From contig JAHBUR010000005.1 in assembly GCA_019637975.1 (NCBI GenBank), positions 62,001 through 126,000 of the forward strand: a stretch of 64,000 nt of DNA, in the 5' to 3' direction. How positions within the stretch are numbered: the stretch's first letter is position 1; each line of letters starts with the position of its first letter. This document shows positions 6,669 through 13,153 of this stretch, piece by piece. The notes under the pieces are model-generated. The model had not been told where the DNA came from, searched no databases, and saw only the letters and a list, made by a program, of their open reading frames with translations. The translations under genes and the position numbers were made by a program. This stretch comes from Bacteroidota bacterium (GTDB lineage: Bacteria; Bacteroidota; Ignavibacteria; UBA10030; UBA6906).

Positions 6669-7010
6669 CGTAGGACGATCAACACATCTCAGTGCTCGCC
6701 GGCGTCTGCCGACGACGGCGGGCAGCTTTGGGTTTGCGGTCGTACGGATTTCTTGCACGATCGAAGAATGCAAACACCGTGACAGCAACCAATGTGTACA
6801 GAGCAACGGTGAAAACCGTGCACAAGAAACATGACCAAGTTTGTCACATTTGTCGTGAAGAATTTTCCAAACCCGCAACTTTTCTCTTGCAATTCCCGGC
6901 ATCCGGAAGTATATTGCAGCCGTCAAAGGCAGAAGTAGAATTGCCTGCAATCTCAAACTGTTCCGTTCTTTGACGTGAGGTGAGTTGATGTCGGGTGTAA
7001 TTGTGGAAGA
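6669..7010 (+). other. non-coding gap after the M14 gene
   Basis: I see no convincing gene here. Around 6706-6724 a short GC-rich inverted sequence resembles a dispersed hairpin but lacks a T tract, so it is a weak terminator. A promoter candidate lies at 6887-6917. Confidence 0.5.
6887..6917 (+). promoter_or_regulatory. Bacteroidota-type promoter candidate
   Basis: TTG (6887-6889), 20 bases, then TATATTGC (6910-6917). It would read into the heptamer array and the truncated lipoprotein gene. Confidence 0.45.
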
Positions 7011-7092
7011 CTCGCCACTCGCCACTCGCCACTCGCCACTCGCCACTCGCCACTCGCCACTCGCCACTCGCCACTCGCCACTCGCCACTCGC
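7011..7092. repeat. heptamer tandem array CTCGCCA x ~11.7
   Basis: Eleven perfect copies of CTCGCCA run from 7011 to 7087, followed by CTCGC. Because 7 is not a multiple of 3 and the unit creates no stop, all six frames stay open and each strand encodes one seven-residue repeat in every frame. Such frames are by-products of the array and should not be annotated as genes. Confidence 0.95.
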
Positions 7093-7227
7093 GAGCGACA
7101 GAACTGTTTCTTTGTGGAGGAGAAGATGAATGTTCAAACTGCGGCACACTTGTTCTCTAATCACACGTCTACACCAGTACATAACGGTTCAGAAAACCGT
7201 TGCCGTCATTGGAAGGAGAACATCAAA

Positions 7228-7545
7228 TTGAAAGCCCTTCTCCATCTCGTACGTCTTTGCTTACTGTTGTTGAGTTCCTGCAAGAAGGACGAATCGTGTA
7301 CGACGTGTGCCGGCACCAAACCAGGCAAACGTGACTTTGTGTGGACGATTGACACACTCTCCTACCCCGGCAGCTTCCAAACACTCATGCGCGAGATCTG
7401 GGCGACCAGCCCTACGAATGTGTACGTAGTCGGGCACAATGACCAACCAGGACCAGGGACAATGTTCAGGTACGACGGAGCGCGCTGGGCGAAACGGTCT
7501 CGTCATCATAGGAAGGAGGTAATGTTGTGTATGAACGCCCGATAA
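7228..7545 (+). pseudogene. truncated lipoprotein (N-terminal fragment)
   Basis: A TTG start at 7228 with GGAAGGAG upstream opens a lipoprotein signal (LLHLVRLCLLLLSSC) followed by KKDESC and a segment (WTIDTLSYPGSFQTLM, then WATSPTNVYVVGHND and FRYDGARW) that I recognise as the start of the long beta-propeller lipoproteins often mislabelled glucosyl transferase in this phylum. The family normally continues for several hundred residues. Here the frame meets unrelated sequence at ~7500, runs through the first copy of the direct repeat and stops at 7545. It is best read as a gene broken by rearrangement at the repeat. A short functional lipoprotein of 105 residues cannot be excluded. Confidence 0.6.
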
Positions 7546-7609
7546 CAACACCGCCACTGTGCTGGTAACACAGCGGCGGCGTACTACTCAAACAAAAGAC
7601 CCCGACGGA
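7511..7609 (+). repeat. direct repeat copy 1 with Shine-Dalgarno and hairpin
   Basis: A 99-bp element nearly identical to 8668-8764. It begins with GGAAGGAGGT, carries a mini-frame ATG AAC GCC CGA TAA (7531-7545), then an imperfect hairpin: arm 7551-7561, loop 7562-7568, arm 7569-7579, 10 of 11 bases paired. The 57 bp from 7540 to 7596 are identical in both copies. Confidence 0.9.
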
Positions 7610-7648
7610 AGATGGAGCGTTACAAAAGAGAATGAAACGGAGATAGAC

Positions 7649-8662
7649 ATGAATCGAATCACAATAGGCGCGTTGCTGCTGGCCGCACTGTTACCCCTTT
7701 CATGCAAAGATTGTGGCACAGACGGAGGGACTAACAACGGAGGAGGAAAAATCAATCCCAACATACTACTTGTAAAGTCCTGTTGCGACGACCCGTTCAT
7801 TGGTGGACAATACAGGATGGGGACATGGAGGGAAAATGTCATCTACATAGGCTCACCTTTCAGACGCATCACATTGAACTCGATCTTGGGTGTCGAACGT
7901 GACACTCTTATCTACTTGTTCGGCAGGCATCGATTCATATCGAACTTGAAAGGCCGAAGGATTATGATGGTACGATCAAACTATGCGGATGTCTCATCTG
8001 GGCAACTTGTGGAGTTCGATGACGAAACGTTGACATTGAGGTCGCTATGCGACAGTACTTACAACATCTCCAGTGCCATCTATTTGCCAAATGAAAATCG
8101 ATGCGTTTATTATACCTACGGGAATTCAACTAGACAAGTTGTTGCCGGATACTACGCCCTTGATCTTGCCACGCTTCAAGATAGCCTTCTCTTCCAATAC
8201 GTTTCAGAGATTGGTCCGAACGAAGTCGTAAACGGTTTTGACATAAGCCCGAACGGAGGTAAGCTTCTCTTTCCCGTCAACCGAAGAACCGAGCGACCAC
8301 TCATTGTCGAGCACTCCCTTGCTTCGGGCGTACGAGAAACACTTAGCGTTGTTCTTGAACGCCAATTGCTCTGGCTTCGGTATCACCCGTCAGGAAATCA
8401 AATTCTCTATTCGAACTACCCAGTCGGTGCAGGAGGCCATACCGTAGCCGATGATGGCGAAATCGGAGTCATCGACCGCTCAACGTTGACCAAGAGGATA
8501 CTTGATGTGAATACAAACCCGGGTGGGCTCTCCGTGAGTGTCTTTCCCAATTGGTCTCCGGACGGAAGACACATCGTGTATGGTAGTGCCAAAGGTCCTG
8601 TGTCAGAACCCCCGGGGGCATTGTCATTCTATTCGTTGTACATCTTGAGGGATGTCAATTGA
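7649..8662 (+). CDS. beta-propeller (TolB/WD40-like) lipoprotein
   Basis: A 337-residue lipoprotein. The ATG at 7649 has GGAGA upstream and opens a signal peptide with lipobox LPLSC, then a Gly/Asn-rich linker (GTDGGTNNGGGK). The rest has blade-like repeats: FDISPNGGKLLF, RYHPSGNQILYSNY and FPNWSPDGRHIVYG are typical of TolB/PD40 propellers. It should sit on the outer membrane, periplasmic or surface side; no catalytic site is apparent. It is flanked on both sides by copies of a ~98-bp direct repeat, which suggests it arrived or is exchanged as a cassette. The reading frame can be extended upstream to a GTG at 7559 inside the repeat, but the signal peptide argues against that start. Confidence 0.8.
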   Translation: MNRITIGALLLAALLPLSCKDCGTDGGTNNGGGKINPNILLVKSCCDDPFIGGQYRMGTWRENVIYIGSPFRRITLNSILGVERDTLIYLFGRHRFISNLKGRRIMMVRSNYADVSSGQLVEFDDETLTLRSLCDSTYNISSAIYLPNENRCVYYTYGNSTRQVVAGYYALDLATLQDSLLFQYVSEIGPNEVVNGFDISPNGGKLLFPVNRRTERPLIVEHSLASGVRETLSVVLERQLLWLRYHPSGNQILYSNYPVGAGGHTVADDGEIGVIDRSTLTKRILDVNTNPGGLSVSVFPNWSPDGRHIVYGSAKGPVSEPPGALSFYSLYILRDVN

Positions 8663-8667
8663 GACAA

Positions 8668-8764
8668 GGAAGGAGGTGAATCTATATAAACGCGCGATAA
8701 CAACACCGCCACTGTGCTGGTAACACAGCGGCGGCGTACTACTCAAACAAACGACCCCGACGGA
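8668..8764 (+). repeat. direct repeat copy 2 with Shine-Dalgarno and hairpin
   Basis: The second copy starts 6 bp after the propeller lipoprotein stop. It keeps GGAAGGAGGT and the hairpin (arms 8706-8716 and 8724-8734, loop 8717-8723). The mini-frame has lost its ATG (ATA AAC GCG CGA TAA). Differences from copy 1 are concentrated between the ribosome-site-like sequence and the hairpin. Confidence 0.9.
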
Positions 8765-8770
8765 TTGACG

Positions 8771-8803
8771 TTGGCATTGCCAACGGGGGAGCCGTATTGT
8801 TTG
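8771..8803 (+). promoter_or_regulatory. weak Bacteroidota-type promoter candidate
   Basis: TTG at 8771-8773 and TATTGTTTG at 8795-8803 with a 21-base spacer. The -7 element has one extra base compared with TAnnTTTG. It would serve the large HExxH gene, whose ATG is 70 bases away. Confidence 0.3.
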
Positions 8804-8872
8804 TGACACAATATAACGAATCCGTTGTTTCTTTCCCAATCCAAGGAGCAACACATTTCAAGGAGTTCATCC

Positions 8873-11800
8873 ATGCACACGAGATCAACATATCTTTGGT
8901 TGATAGCGGCGCTGTCTTTCTTGAGTGCGCTTCTGTCCAACACGGCTATTGCTACATCTCCGGCTTTTCCGCCATCTGTTACAATCAACTCCATGGAGAT
9001 CATTGGAGAACCGACTGAAGGAAAGACGGTAGAACTGAAGATCGCTTACACAGCGTACGTTAATGGTCAGGCGCGATTCATCCTGAATTACCCGGGATAC
9101 ATCCGACCGACAAATCTTCTTTCCGGAGTTTCACTCATGGAAGAAACAGTCACGTTGGTTGCCGGGCAGACTGCAGAGCGCCGCATATCACTGCAGGTCG
9201 AACAATCAGGCGCGTCGCTCATCTCTGCAGGAGTGATTCTTTCTCCCCCTCTTGCCGGCTACTCACGCGGCGATTCACGATTCCTGAGTATTGAATCTAC
9301 CGACAAGAGCTTTCGGATTTATGATGATCGTGCTCCCGGCGAGCCTAATGTGAAAAGAGTTGTTCCGCATTATGGAGCGGATAATCCACTGAAGGGTGGA
9401 GGTGAACCGATGGGGGTGAATACAACGTACAATGTTTCAATCACCGGAAAAATTGATTACTACAATCAGAATTTCGAGGTTTATCAAGGTCTCTACGGCA
9501 ACTATGTCAAGCTCTGGTTTCGCAACACAGCGAATCCGAACGAATGGTATCATCCCGTGTATGCTGGTGATTGTTACGGGACTCGTCACACACACTACGA
9601 CATGCTTGACGCGAACGGGAATTACAACTTCAATTTTACGTTCAACGGCGATCTGAGCGGCTATAACCAGGTTCTTGTTTTGGTGGAAAGAGGCAATCCG
9701 GCTTCATGGATGCCTGTTCAACAAAATGGCATTGAGAGCTGGTGCAACAATGCCGTTACAGTCTACTTCTCCCTTTCCGAAGCCGTTCAGTATTCAATCA
9801 ACGGAAGCAATCCTAACATTGTGTTGACGAATGCCAACGCACAAGTCAATTGGCAGGACGGTGCCATCTTTCGGAATATGATTCTCGCGCGAGAATTTGT
9901 CATTCAACGCTATGGAGGAAATCCCCCATTCACAACCGCCCCGATTGAAACCCGACGTGGAAGCATTAATGGCGGCTTGTTTAGTGTGGTTTGGAGCTTG
10001 GAGCGCGGATTTCACTGGTACGTTACAATCGGGCACGCATGGACAGAACCGACGGTCGTTACGCACGAATACGGTCACTATGCAAACTTTAACATGTGGG
10101 GTCAGAACGTTGCCGAATGGTTTCTTTCAAATGATAACCTGATTGAAGGATGGGGGATTTTTTACTCTTTTGCGGCTAGAAACTATATCAACAAGGTCTA
10201 CGGTGATGGAGTCTTCTCCCCAAGTTCCCTCACCAACGACAACACAGAACTTGGTCCGTTCTATGTATCAGGTTCTCGATACCGCAACATCAGCTACGCG
10301 TACAATGGCGAGCCGATGAAGGCCGCAATTGGCTGCTATCTCTGGAATCTCTATGACGGCTACGCAGGTGAAGGTTTTGAAATGTCAACCTATGATCCTG
10401 GGGATAATGATGACATTTCCGGTTTGTCGAACACAGTTTTTGAAACGATGCGAAACCTTGACGTTGGACAGAGAATCGCGGGTGTGCCGTCTTATCACCA
10501 GTATTTCAAGTCGAACGTCTCATCAGCCACTCATCTGTCCATTGACGATATCTACCGGTTTATGTTCGACGACCTTTACAATATTCCAGCACACAAGATG
10601 AGATCACCACAAGTGAAGGAAATTGGAGTAATAACACTGTCGCAAGTCGATATACGGTTCTCATGGGTTCCACAAAGCTATCCCAGTTTCTATTCGGAAA
10701 CAAATCCACCAAACGAGTATCGCATCTATAAGAATGATGGCGGAATTTGGAATCTTGTTCGAACCGCCCCATACGGTTCATCCTCGGTACTCGTGACCAT
10801 TGCAAATCCCCGAGGCCAATATAGAGTCACTTCAGCAAATTCGAGTGGGGATTCTTATGGTGCGCCAGAAGTGAACATCGTTGCAGTAGTGCTCACCCCT
10901 GCTGCATATGTTGAACCTGGTGGGTCTGGCGGTACATATCGTGTAAACGGAAACCCCGTTGGCGAGAGTTGGCAGACCTATGCAATCGCAGGTCAGCAGA
11001 TGACTATTGAGGCTCTGCCACCGAATTCCGAGTGGGTCTTTGTGCAATGGAGTGATGGCAACAAGGACCAATTACGAACCATACTCGCCAGTGAAGTCAG
11101 CTTGTTGGCTCTTTACAAAAAACACCTCGCCTCCTCGCTTGCCGTCGCTACCTCGCCCAACAGCCAGCGGAAGCTTTCGGTTGACAAGGGAGAGATAGAC
11201 TCGAAAGCCGCGCTTACCTACGCCAGCGGCGGGGAAATCTGGCTGAGCGAAAGCGATGGCTCGCTCGGCACATTCACGAACGAGTTCAGGGTCAGCGATG
11301 GCAGCGGCAACTTCAATTTTCCGTCCGTGGTTGCCACATCAAGCATAGGTACTCCGCCGAGTCCGGGCGACGGCTTCAGCAGCTCCCCGCCGCATATTGC
11401 TGTGGTGTACCAAAAAACATTTGAGAACGGCTTGGGGGTATCTTTTCGAGAGAAGAGCGGGGAAGCATGGGAGAATCCCGCTACGTTGGAGAGCTACAAT
11501 TTTGGTGTGGTCAACGCAACTCCTGTAATCGGTCGAACAGGGTGTGAACATTTCCCCCAGTTTACTGTTGTTTGGGTTCGGGGAGAAGGACTGAAATACA
11601 GGCACCGTTCAGCGGGCATTTGGAACCCGAGCCCACAAAGCGTACCCGGGAGTACTTCGGGCGATGTGAGGCCCAGCATCTCCACAGGGTACATGAACTA
11701 TGATCCAAACTACCACGGTACAGCGCCGCTGTTTCTGAGCTACGACAACAGCACAAGTATATTTCTCCAAAGAATCAACGGAGGAACATTCCAGACGCGG

Positions 11801-13153
11801 GAAACCATCTGGCAAACTACCGGCACGTTTGCGGGCAAATCACAAGTTGCCGCCGATACGCGCAATTCTTCGGAGCTTCATGCACATGTTGTGTGGGAAA
11901 ATCTCTCTGCCATAGTCGGTCCGAATGAGGAGGAAGAGGAACAAGATGATATTCAACTGCAAAGCTCTGTCATGCACAGAAGGAAGGTCGGCAATACGCT
12001 GGGTTGGGTCACGGAATTTCGCAGCTTCGACACAGGAGAACACTACTACCATCCCACCGTTGCATTGTTGGATGACGGCACGGCGCGTTGGGCGTGGGAT
12101 AACGGAATGGATTGCTTCAAAGCGCGGTGGGACGGTTCGTCATGGGAGGTCACGGACTACCAACCATACACGGCGCACCCAACTCTTCCGGGAAACGGCA
12201 CGTCGGGTTTACTGTACTCGGCTCCCTTCCTTTCCATGAGCCTCAGCGGCGCCCCGTATGCCATTGAGCAACGGGATCAATCCGATGCAGTCCCGCGAAT
12301 CGAAACAGCATACAGCAGACGTGTTGCCGGGGCGATAGCGCCCGCCAAAGGGGAACCGCCCGCGGCAACCCGGAAACGACCGGGATTCAGCATTGAACTC
12401 CGTCAGGTGCAATTGAAACTGGCCGACGGCTCACGCGTTGGGGTGGAGTTTGTGCAGACGCGAAGCAATCAAACAACTGCTTGGGAGATGATGCAAACCC
12501 GTCCCGTGATGTTGACTGCAGCCATTGAGAGTGTTTTCGTCAGAGGAATTGTTCAACTCGACTCGGCACAACGCCTCGGAGGATCGGTACGTATCAGCTT
12601 TGATCTGATTGACAATCAGACGGGGAACCTGCTCGGCAAGTTGGGAACGGAACGGGTCTTCACAGCCGATACGGTGAAGGGATTTCGCATCAAGCACCGT
12701 ATCGCGCCGTTTGCCGGGCGTGAAGTCATCATCCGACCGGCCATACTCGGGTTGAACGAAAGAGATATGAAGTTCGAATTCGTCCACGTACACACGATCC
12801 GTGTGGACACGAACTCCATGCGGCCAATCCTCTCGCCGACATTGCTGAAGCAAGAGCCGCTGCAAGGTCCAACGGAGTTTGCGCTGCATCCGACCTATCC
12901 CAACCCGTTCAATCCCTCAACCACCATCCGTTACGAACTCCCCGAAGCCGTCCATGCTTCGCTGGTGATCTATGATGTGATGGGGAGAAAAGTGGCGGAG
13001 TTGGTCAATGGGACGCATGAGGCGGGTTATTACGCTGCAACGTGGGATGCATCCGGTGTTGCCAGCGGCGTGTACTTTGCGCGGTTCACGGCAACGGATA
13101 TGAGCGGAGGTGTACGGCTGAACAAAGTGAGTAAGTTGGTGTTAACGAAATAG
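8873..13153 (+). CDS. giant secreted HExxH metalloprotease-like protein with type IX sorting domain
   Basis: 1426 residues; start fixed by AAGGAG and a signal peptide ending near TAIATSP. N-terminal beta domains (1-200) precede a zincin-like region: HEYGH at 398-402 (VVTHEYGHYANF) and a Glu 23 residues further (E425 in IEGWGIFYS), consistent with a gluzincin zinc site. Then come a fibronectin-like segment (SQVDIRFSWVP), one InlB B-like repeat (YVEPGGSGGTYRVNG...FVQWSDG), a propeller-like region with an acidic EEEEEQDD loop, and the type IX sorting domain (YPNPFNPSTTIRYELP, ending LVLTK). It probably degrades extracellular protein, but the substrate is unknown. The part before ~11120 looks more AT-rich than the part after it, hinting at a mosaic gene. 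Confidence 0.88.
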   Translation: MHTRSTYLWLIAALSFLSALLSNTAIATSPAFPPSVTINSMEIIGEPTEGKTVELKIAYTAYVNGQARFILNYPGYIRPTNLLSGVSLMEETVTLVAGQTAERRISLQVEQSGASLISAGVILSPPLAGYSRGDSRFLSIESTDKSFRIYDDRAPGEPNVKRVVPHYGADNPLKGGGEPMGVNTTYNVSITGKIDYYNQNFEVYQGLYGNYVKLWFRNTANPNEWYHPVYAGDCYGTRHTHYDMLDANGNYNFNFTFNGDLSGYNQVLVLVERGNPASWMPVQQNGIESWCNNAVTVYFSLSEAVQYSINGSNPNIVLTNANAQVNWQDGAIFRNMILAREFVIQRYGGNPPFTTAPIETRRGSINGGLFSVVWSLERGFHWYVTIGHAWTEPTVVTHEYGHYANFNMWGQNVAEWFLSNDNLIEGWGIFYSFAARNYINKVYGDGVFSPSSLTNDNTELGPFYVSGSRYRNISYAYNGEPMKAAIGCYLWNLYDGYAGEGFEMSTYDPGDNDDISGLSNTVFETMRNLDVGQRIAGVPSYHQYFKSNVSSATHLSIDDIYRFMFDDLYNIPAHKMRSPQVKEIGVITLSQVDIRFSWVPQSYPSFYSETNPPNEYRIYKNDGGIWNLVRTAPYGSSSVLVTIANPRGQYRVTSANSSGDSYGAPEVNIVAVVLTPAAYVEPGGSGGTYRVNGNPVGESWQTYAIAGQQMTIEALPPNSEWVFVQWSDGNKDQLRTILASEVSLLALYKKHLASSLAVATSPNSQRKLSVDKGEIDSKAALTYASGGEIWLSESDGSLGTFTNEFRVSDGSGNFNFPSVVATSSIGTPPSPGDGFSSSPPHIAVVYQKTFENGLGVSFREKSGEAWENPATLESYNFGVVNATPVIGRTGCEHFPQFTVVWVRGEGLKYRHRSAGIWNPSPQSVPGSTSGDVRPSISTGYMNYDPNYHGTAPLFLSYDNSTSIFLQRINGGTFQTRETIWQTTGTFAGKSQVAADTRNSSELHAHVVWENLSAIVGPNEEEEEQDDIQLQSSVMHRRKVGNTLGWVTEFRSFDTGEHYYHPTVALLDDGTARWAWDNGMDCFKARWDGSSWEVTDYQPYTAHPTLPGNGTSGLLYSAPFLSMSLSGAPYAIEQRDQSDAVPRIETAYSRRVAGAIAPAKGEPPAATRKRPGFSIELRQVQLKLADGSRVGVEFVQTRSNQTTAWEMMQTRPVMLTAAIESVFVRGIVQLDSAQRLGGSVRISFDLIDNQTGNLLGKLGTERVFTADTVKGFRIKHRIAPFAGREVIIRPAILGLNERDMKFEFVHVHTIRVDTNSMRPILSPTLLKQEPLQGPTEFALHPTYPNPFNPSTTIRYELPEAVHASLVIYDVMGRKVAELVNGTHEAGYYAATWDASGVASGVYFARFTATDMSGGVRLNKVSKLVLTK

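Follow-up and report, generated by a model that had tools for sequence, protein, structure and literature searches.

The two direct repeats at positions 7511–7609 and 8668–8764 of the window (the whole 64,000-nucleotide stretch of DNA analysed here) are members of an undescribed, structured intergenic element that is found class-wide. The element is probably a new device for controlling genes and not a mobile cassette. The reading that we prefer, and toward which the balance of the evidence leans, is that the two copies, W1 and W2, belong to a class-wide element encoding a cis-antisense small RNA that faces a tiny reading frame. The family, its structure and covariation, the strand preference of the hairpin P1, the enrichment of the ribosome site and mini-frame, and the gene context were all computed.

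W1 (99 bp) and W2 (97 bp) had been described as direct repeats of ~98 bp with a 57 bp core, and alignment bears this out: 91 of 96 aligned bases are identical (95%), and the longest exact match is 57 bp, starting at 7540 in W1 and 8695 in W2. Each copy also has the Shine-Dalgarno-like sequence ascribed to it, GGAAGGAGGT, on the plus strand at 7511–7520 and 8668–8677. The four-codon frame said to be present in each copy is found in W1 only, where ATGAACGCCCGATAA (7531–7545, MNAR*) uses an inner start within the plus-strand mini-ORF MLCMNAR* (7522–7545); the frame in W2 reads ATA-AAC-GCG-CGA-TAA, with ATA in place of the W1 ATG, and has no start codon. The reported hairpin, P1, is present in both copies (7551–7579 and 8706–8734), with the correction that on the plus strand its 11 bp arms are interrupted by a single A·C mismatch. 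This mismatch in the window hairpin, CCGCCACTGTG-CTGGTAA-CACAGCGGCGG, is a G·U pair on the minus strand, and P1 of W1 is mismatch-free on the minus strand only. W1 is a partial copy consisting of the Shine-Dalgarno site, mini-ORF and P1; it ends at GACGGA without the branched hairpin P2/P3, and folding of its P2/P3 region is no better than that of shuffles (z = +1.7). W2 is complete and reaches past the end of the repeat to about 8806 (8668–8806, plus strand), as defined by covariance models and minus-strand folding (z = −5.3 to −5.9). Its P2 stem (8744–8758 pairing with 8786–8803, minus strand) was found by folding and encloses the P3 hairpin (8769–8785).

A single lipoprotein gene lies between the repeats, as first noted (7649–8662, plus strand, 337 aa); it has a weak PD40 propeller match in a domain search, an ortholog in the sister species and a homolog in genome G053. 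As for the related gene described as cut off by the upstream copy, a propeller-type lipoprotein remnant (7228–7545, within the plus-strand ORF 6985–7545) runs into W1, its frame entering the mini-frame, and by eye it is the same protein type as the intact upstream genes elsewhere (RDFVWTIDT.. motif). On the other side of W2 is a plus-strand gene (8873–13153) for a secreted 1426-aa protein with a type IX secretion tail (Por_Secre_tail, E = 4.5e-7) and an HEYGH zinc-protease-like motif read in the translation. There are also 7-bp tandem repeats (CGCCACT) at 7014–7092, upstream of the lipoprotein remnant, and in the sister species the array is preceded by a related CATTCGC run and a CTTTGACGTG.GGTGAG leader in common with the window, within a different wider gene neighbourhood.

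DNA comparison with the 99 bp repeat reveals two copies only in its own genome and none in plasmids or phages. The sister species Chlorobi bacterium CHB1 (G001) has two DNA-level copies, one on each side of its ortholog of the lipoprotein gene at 7649–8662, and it alone has the exact core among the GTDB genome contigs. A covariance model was built from these four copies (window genome and sister) and re-estimated in rounds. The first model recovered four diverged copies, one of them on another contig of the window genome, and the re-estimated models recovered about 20 and then 53 (model R3, E ≤ 0.001, 391 class genomes, with ~0.4 expected from the E-values). Copies in the window genome lie on contig C7 (E = 4e-7) and, more weakly, contig C17, and others are spread over dozens of genera. 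The initial annotation had held that a lack of any other copies would point to one local duplication; further copies are present in the same genome and in the class. The C17 match (G000:C17:45363; E = 0.14) is weak but convincing as a fourth copy in this genome, with a ribosome site, a hairpin and a P2-like AACGGCAAAC/GTTTGCCGTT pair; the upstream neighbour at this locus (L152) is a type IX-tailed protein, not a lipoprotein. Weak matches without common context (L053, L054, L056, L057, L060 and L063) were left out of the model. In a phylum-wide sample outside the class, matches are no more numerous than expected by chance, except in G421, which has the full layout. No Rfam covariance model matches the window or any of four related loci, even with E relaxed to 1–5, and copies recur elsewhere beside lipoprotein genes, in agreement with the suggestion that the element is undescribed. 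Copies within one genome (W2 and that on C7) have structure in common, not sequence. W1 and W2 are 95% identical and are 83–90% identical to their positional counterparts in the sister species, which suggests gene conversion or recent re-duplication.

Copies usually sit where a propeller lipoprotein gene ends, at its stop codon, and ahead of a gene for a secreted protein that is often a protease with a type IX tail. Of 51 loci with a long ORF upstream, 46 have the stop codon of that ORF between −26 and +21 nt relative to where the element begins. A cysteine near position 19, a lipoprotein hallmark, is present in at least 90% of the upstream proteins that were aligned, and their recognised folds are mostly beta-propellers. 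Type IX secretion tails are present in 16 of 33 downstream proteins, and subtilisin, trypsin, thermolysin or papain domains also occur, protease annotation here meaning domain matches or a motif only. A SusC-like gene is downstream in two loci only (L133 in G184 and L136 in G141), where the element follows a FecR anti-sigma gene, precedes the gene for a SusC-like TonB receptor and folds much better on the minus strand; most downstream genes encode type IX-secreted proteins and proteases.

The initial annotation regarded the repeats as flanking their gene; however, there is normally one element per lipoprotein gene, at the gene 3′ end, rather than a flanking pair. Tandem lipoprotein-element arrays with the secreted-protein gene at the end are present in L102 (G292), L106 (G377), L116 (G210), L126 and L129. 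In G053 (L036) the lipoprotein and secreted-protein gene pair occurs without any element, and the lipoprotein gene is therefore not a payload of the repeats. Judged by its arrangement, the window locus reads as a decaying lipoprotein-element array in which the first gene has decayed and the first element is truncated, the two copies having evidently arisen via tandem duplication of a lipoprotein-plus-element unit. A gene flanked by repeats can thus be an array of gene and RNA units instead of a mobile cassette.

Read on the plus strand, the element consists of the lipoprotein stop codon, AAGGAGGT, often an ATG with 1–7 codons and a stop, an A-rich stretch and P1, followed by a GCAAACAAA-type arm, the inner hairpin P3, a TTTGTTTGC-type arm (completing P2), an A/T-rich stretch and the next gene. 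P1 has about 11 bp, a GTG/CAC apex and a 7-nt loop. Its pairing is maintained by compensatory change: 93.6% of cells are paired, and there are 169 double changes as against 43.8 in shuffled controls and at most 45 when slid. The non-Watson-Crick pairs in 61 hairpins are very unevenly divided on the plus strand, with 47 A·C or C·A, six A·A, three T·G and no G·T; the imbalance between A·C and G·U types is 28:1 outside the favoured mismatch position 6, and 25:2 in matches that were not used for model building. An A·C on one strand is a G·U on its complement, and the pattern of change in P1 is therefore that of a hairpin in a minus-strand RNA. A residues make up a mean of 7.06 of the 10 nt preceding P1, which gives the minus strand a U-tract there; the 10 nt that follow P1 have a mean of only 2.0 T residues. 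After correction for shuffles, P1 folds better on the minus strand in 50 of 65 elements (p = 8e-6), compared with 32 of 63 coding controls. The U-tract behind P1 is poorly developed in W1 and W2, and a terminator scan gave no call for P1.

The P2/P3 region is stable (z < −2 in 28 of 65 elements and 2 of 63 coding controls), with a weak strand preference, the minus strand being the better in 39 of 65 (p = 0.07), and no strand bias in P2 mismatch types (11 G·T and 11 A·C). W2 folded as the predicted minus-strand RNA has z = −5.9. The P2 arms of a locus pair only modestly better with each other than with those of other loci (8.7 versus 7.5), a small margin explained by conservation of the A-rich and T-rich arms, and P2 therefore rests on the fold z-scores and not on covariation. 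Three loci (L081, L103 and L122) have an inverted repeat, GGTTTAAGA..TCTTAAAC(C), immediately past the element, after P2, possibly an operator or a further RNA hairpin.

The ribosome site and the frame behind it are both overrepresented on the plus strand, the search models including the ribosome site and P1, so that the frequency of both among the matches is somewhat inflated. AGGAGG is present in 40 of 64 copies where 1.1 would be expected, and 21 of 55 copies have a closed mini-ORF, starting 5–12 nt after the site and stopping in frame ahead of P1, as against 2.8 expected from shuffled linkers. These mini-ORFs are 2–8 codons long, and the phases of closed frames are distributed 23:10:5; most copies, W2 included, have no closed mini-ORF. 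A conserved mini-peptide was considered and dropped, the sequences being variable (MNIK, MKIK, MRVQ, MVRRR) and many copies having no start codon. The variability of the mini-peptides makes it likely that the act of translation, rather than its product, is what matters.

A promoter-like site, TTGGGA-18-TATATT (8810–8839, minus strand), lies upstream of P2 on the minus strand and is placed for an RNA start at P2; a CCAATC block is conserved in four distant loci. Perfect matches to TAnnTTTG, the established Bacteroides promoter consensus (PMC7366714), number nine on the minus strand where 2.9 are expected, a moderate enrichment, and none on the plus strand; there is thus no TAnnTTTG enrichment across copies indicative of a plus-strand promoter for the downstream gene. 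The promoter-like site, the fold and the strand tests together predict an antisense small RNA of ~110 nt at 8695–8803 on the minus strand, with its 5′ end near 8803 and P1 of W2 as its terminator hairpin.

From these features we infer transcription, promoter, pairing, the direction of regulation, and the existence and effect of the RNA, as follows. A minus-strand promoter beside the start of the downstream secreted-protein gene would drive the ~110 nt RNA, which would fold P2/P3 first and then P1, with its 3′ end at the U-rich tract behind P1. The plus strand of the same region, between the lipoprotein stop and the secreted-protein gene, would present a strong ribosome site and often a 2–8 codon frame whose stop codon lies at the base of P1. 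The antisense RNA would pair with the plus-strand transcript from the 3′ end of the lipoprotein gene into the leader of the gene for the secreted protein. This pairing may repress or uncouple the downstream gene, so regulating the secreted protein relative to the lipoprotein. A ribosome held on the mini-frame could shield the stretch opposite the 3′ end of the antisense RNA and thereby tune repression. More tentatively, and with doubts of our own, we suggest that each lipoprotein/secreted-protease pair has its own cis-antisense RNA facing a ribosome-loading mini-ORF, that translation of its 2–8 codons decides how far silencing reaches, and that this arrangement is class-wide and previously undescribed. 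The abutment of a ribosome site and mini-ORF on the 3′ end of an antisense RNA is unusual, and would make the interplay of translation and antisense pairing directly testable.

A less probable reading, to which we nonetheless give real weight, places the element on the plus strand, with P1 and P2/P3 in the lipoprotein 3′ UTR or secreted-protein gene leader. The ribosome site, the mini-frame, P1 and a terminator-like P2 would then form an attenuator or stabilise the mRNA, and so determine how much lipoprotein is made relative to secreted protein. The plus-strand enrichment of the ribosome site and mini-frame, the overlap or abutment of the lipoprotein stop codon with the ribosome site, and the T-rich stretch that follows the P2 stem on that strand in many copies would all fit. 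However, P1 avoids G·U and tolerates A·C on the plus strand (47:3) and folds worse there in 50 of 65 elements, and P1 and P2 do not overlap, so that no alternative antiterminator is evident. It seems rather unlikely that the hairpins are mere terminators with no regulatory RNA, P1 serving stray minus-strand transcription and P2 both directions. The anatomy of P1 is that of a minus-strand intrinsic terminator, and P2 is near-palindromic with A-rich and T-rich sides; yet a minus-strand terminator between two plus-strand genes presupposes minus-strand transcription, and copies turn up repeatedly at a single kind of gene pair, with the apex, the AAACAAA arm, the ribosome site and the mini-frame in common.

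The initial annotation favored a cassette-exchange or recombination unit for surface lipoproteins, and this is now largely refuted and very improbable; one form that such a unit could take is that of attC-like sites acting on a folded bottom strand. Lipoprotein-plus-element units are tandemly repeated in several genera, and the window genome has an integron-type integrase on contig C38, but the attC core-box pair (RYYYAAC / GTTRRRY) is present in none of the 65 elements on either strand, and no attC-like pair occurs in the 10.7 kb beside the integrase. Moreover, there is no convincing target duplication (the best flanking repeat is 4–5 bp), the stems show compensatory changes, copies within a genome are alike in structure rather than sequence, and the G053 gene pair is conserved without an element. 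The integrase (G000:C38:31569-32510; L154, L158) scores 467 bits, above the curated cut-off, and is also present in the sister species. A MITE or REP-type mobile element was likewise rejected, there being only two close DNA copies in the genome, with the others alike in structure only, and flanking repeats of at most 4–5 bp. Local duplication without function accords with the two close DNA copies and the truncation of W1, and may still apply to that copy, though the compensatory evolution and class-wide recurrence refute it for the family and leave it a very slight chance overall.

Several known systems resemble the element in part. The FopS paralogous small RNAs of Bacteroides likewise form a multi-locus family within the wider group, with genes for outer-membrane proteins as targets, but they are trans-acting, with a conserved 5′ seed and one terminator hairpin (PMC11697453). 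The element loci tested match no Rfam family. STAB-SD is a ribosome site that lies in an untranslated region and prolongs the half-life of the mRNA. This stabiliser of Bacillus cry3A mRNA (reviewed in PMC4113751) resembles the element, at the level of sequence motif, in having a strong ribosome site, GAAAGGAGG, that does not serve a normal gene; it differs in lacking a hairpin family or antisense RNA and in its 5′ rather than intercistronic position. By architecture alone, the element can be likened to CopA and Tap, in which an antisense RNA faces a short leader that is translated and adjoins the gene under control. The CopA antisense RNA of plasmid R1, with its Tap leader peptide, serves plasmid copy control through a trans-pairing loop; the leader peptide is longer than the mini-ORFs described here.

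The closest known system is that of the DonS-type antisense RNAs of Bacteroides polysaccharide loci; by analogy the element would work like DonS, and since its main gene partners differ we do not file it as a member. The site between FecR and SusC-like genes in L133 and L136 is what we take to be the DonS position. Characteristic of the DonS type are a promoter of its own, a downstream susC homolog of a polysaccharide utilization locus, and repression of the operon that the RNA faces. DonS-type RNAs are cis-antisense small RNAs associated with polysaccharide utilization loci (PULs) in Bacteroides, 78–128 nt long and divergent to the downstream outer-membrane-protein operon (PMC7366714, PMC10994844). 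The predicted element RNA, of ~110 nt, would fall within this range, and it would similarly be encoded on the strand opposite to the downstream operon, in the gap that precedes that operon, as judged computationally from the P1 strand tests and position. In both systems a genome can have more than one locus, every locus with a separate copy, and the Bacteroidota-type TAnnTTTG promoter context may also be common to both, the enrichment in the element being moderate. Unlike DonS, the element has as its main partners a propeller lipoprotein and a type IX-secreted protein or protease rather than anti-sigma and SusC genes, has a ribosome site and mini-ORF at the 3′ side of the RNA, and is confined to the class above chance expectation, G421 excepted. 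If our reading is correct, the locus-specific antisense RNA control known for Bacteroides polysaccharide loci extends to uncultured Ignavibacteria-type bacteria, such as members of anammox-reactor communities, and also reaches secreted-protease operons.
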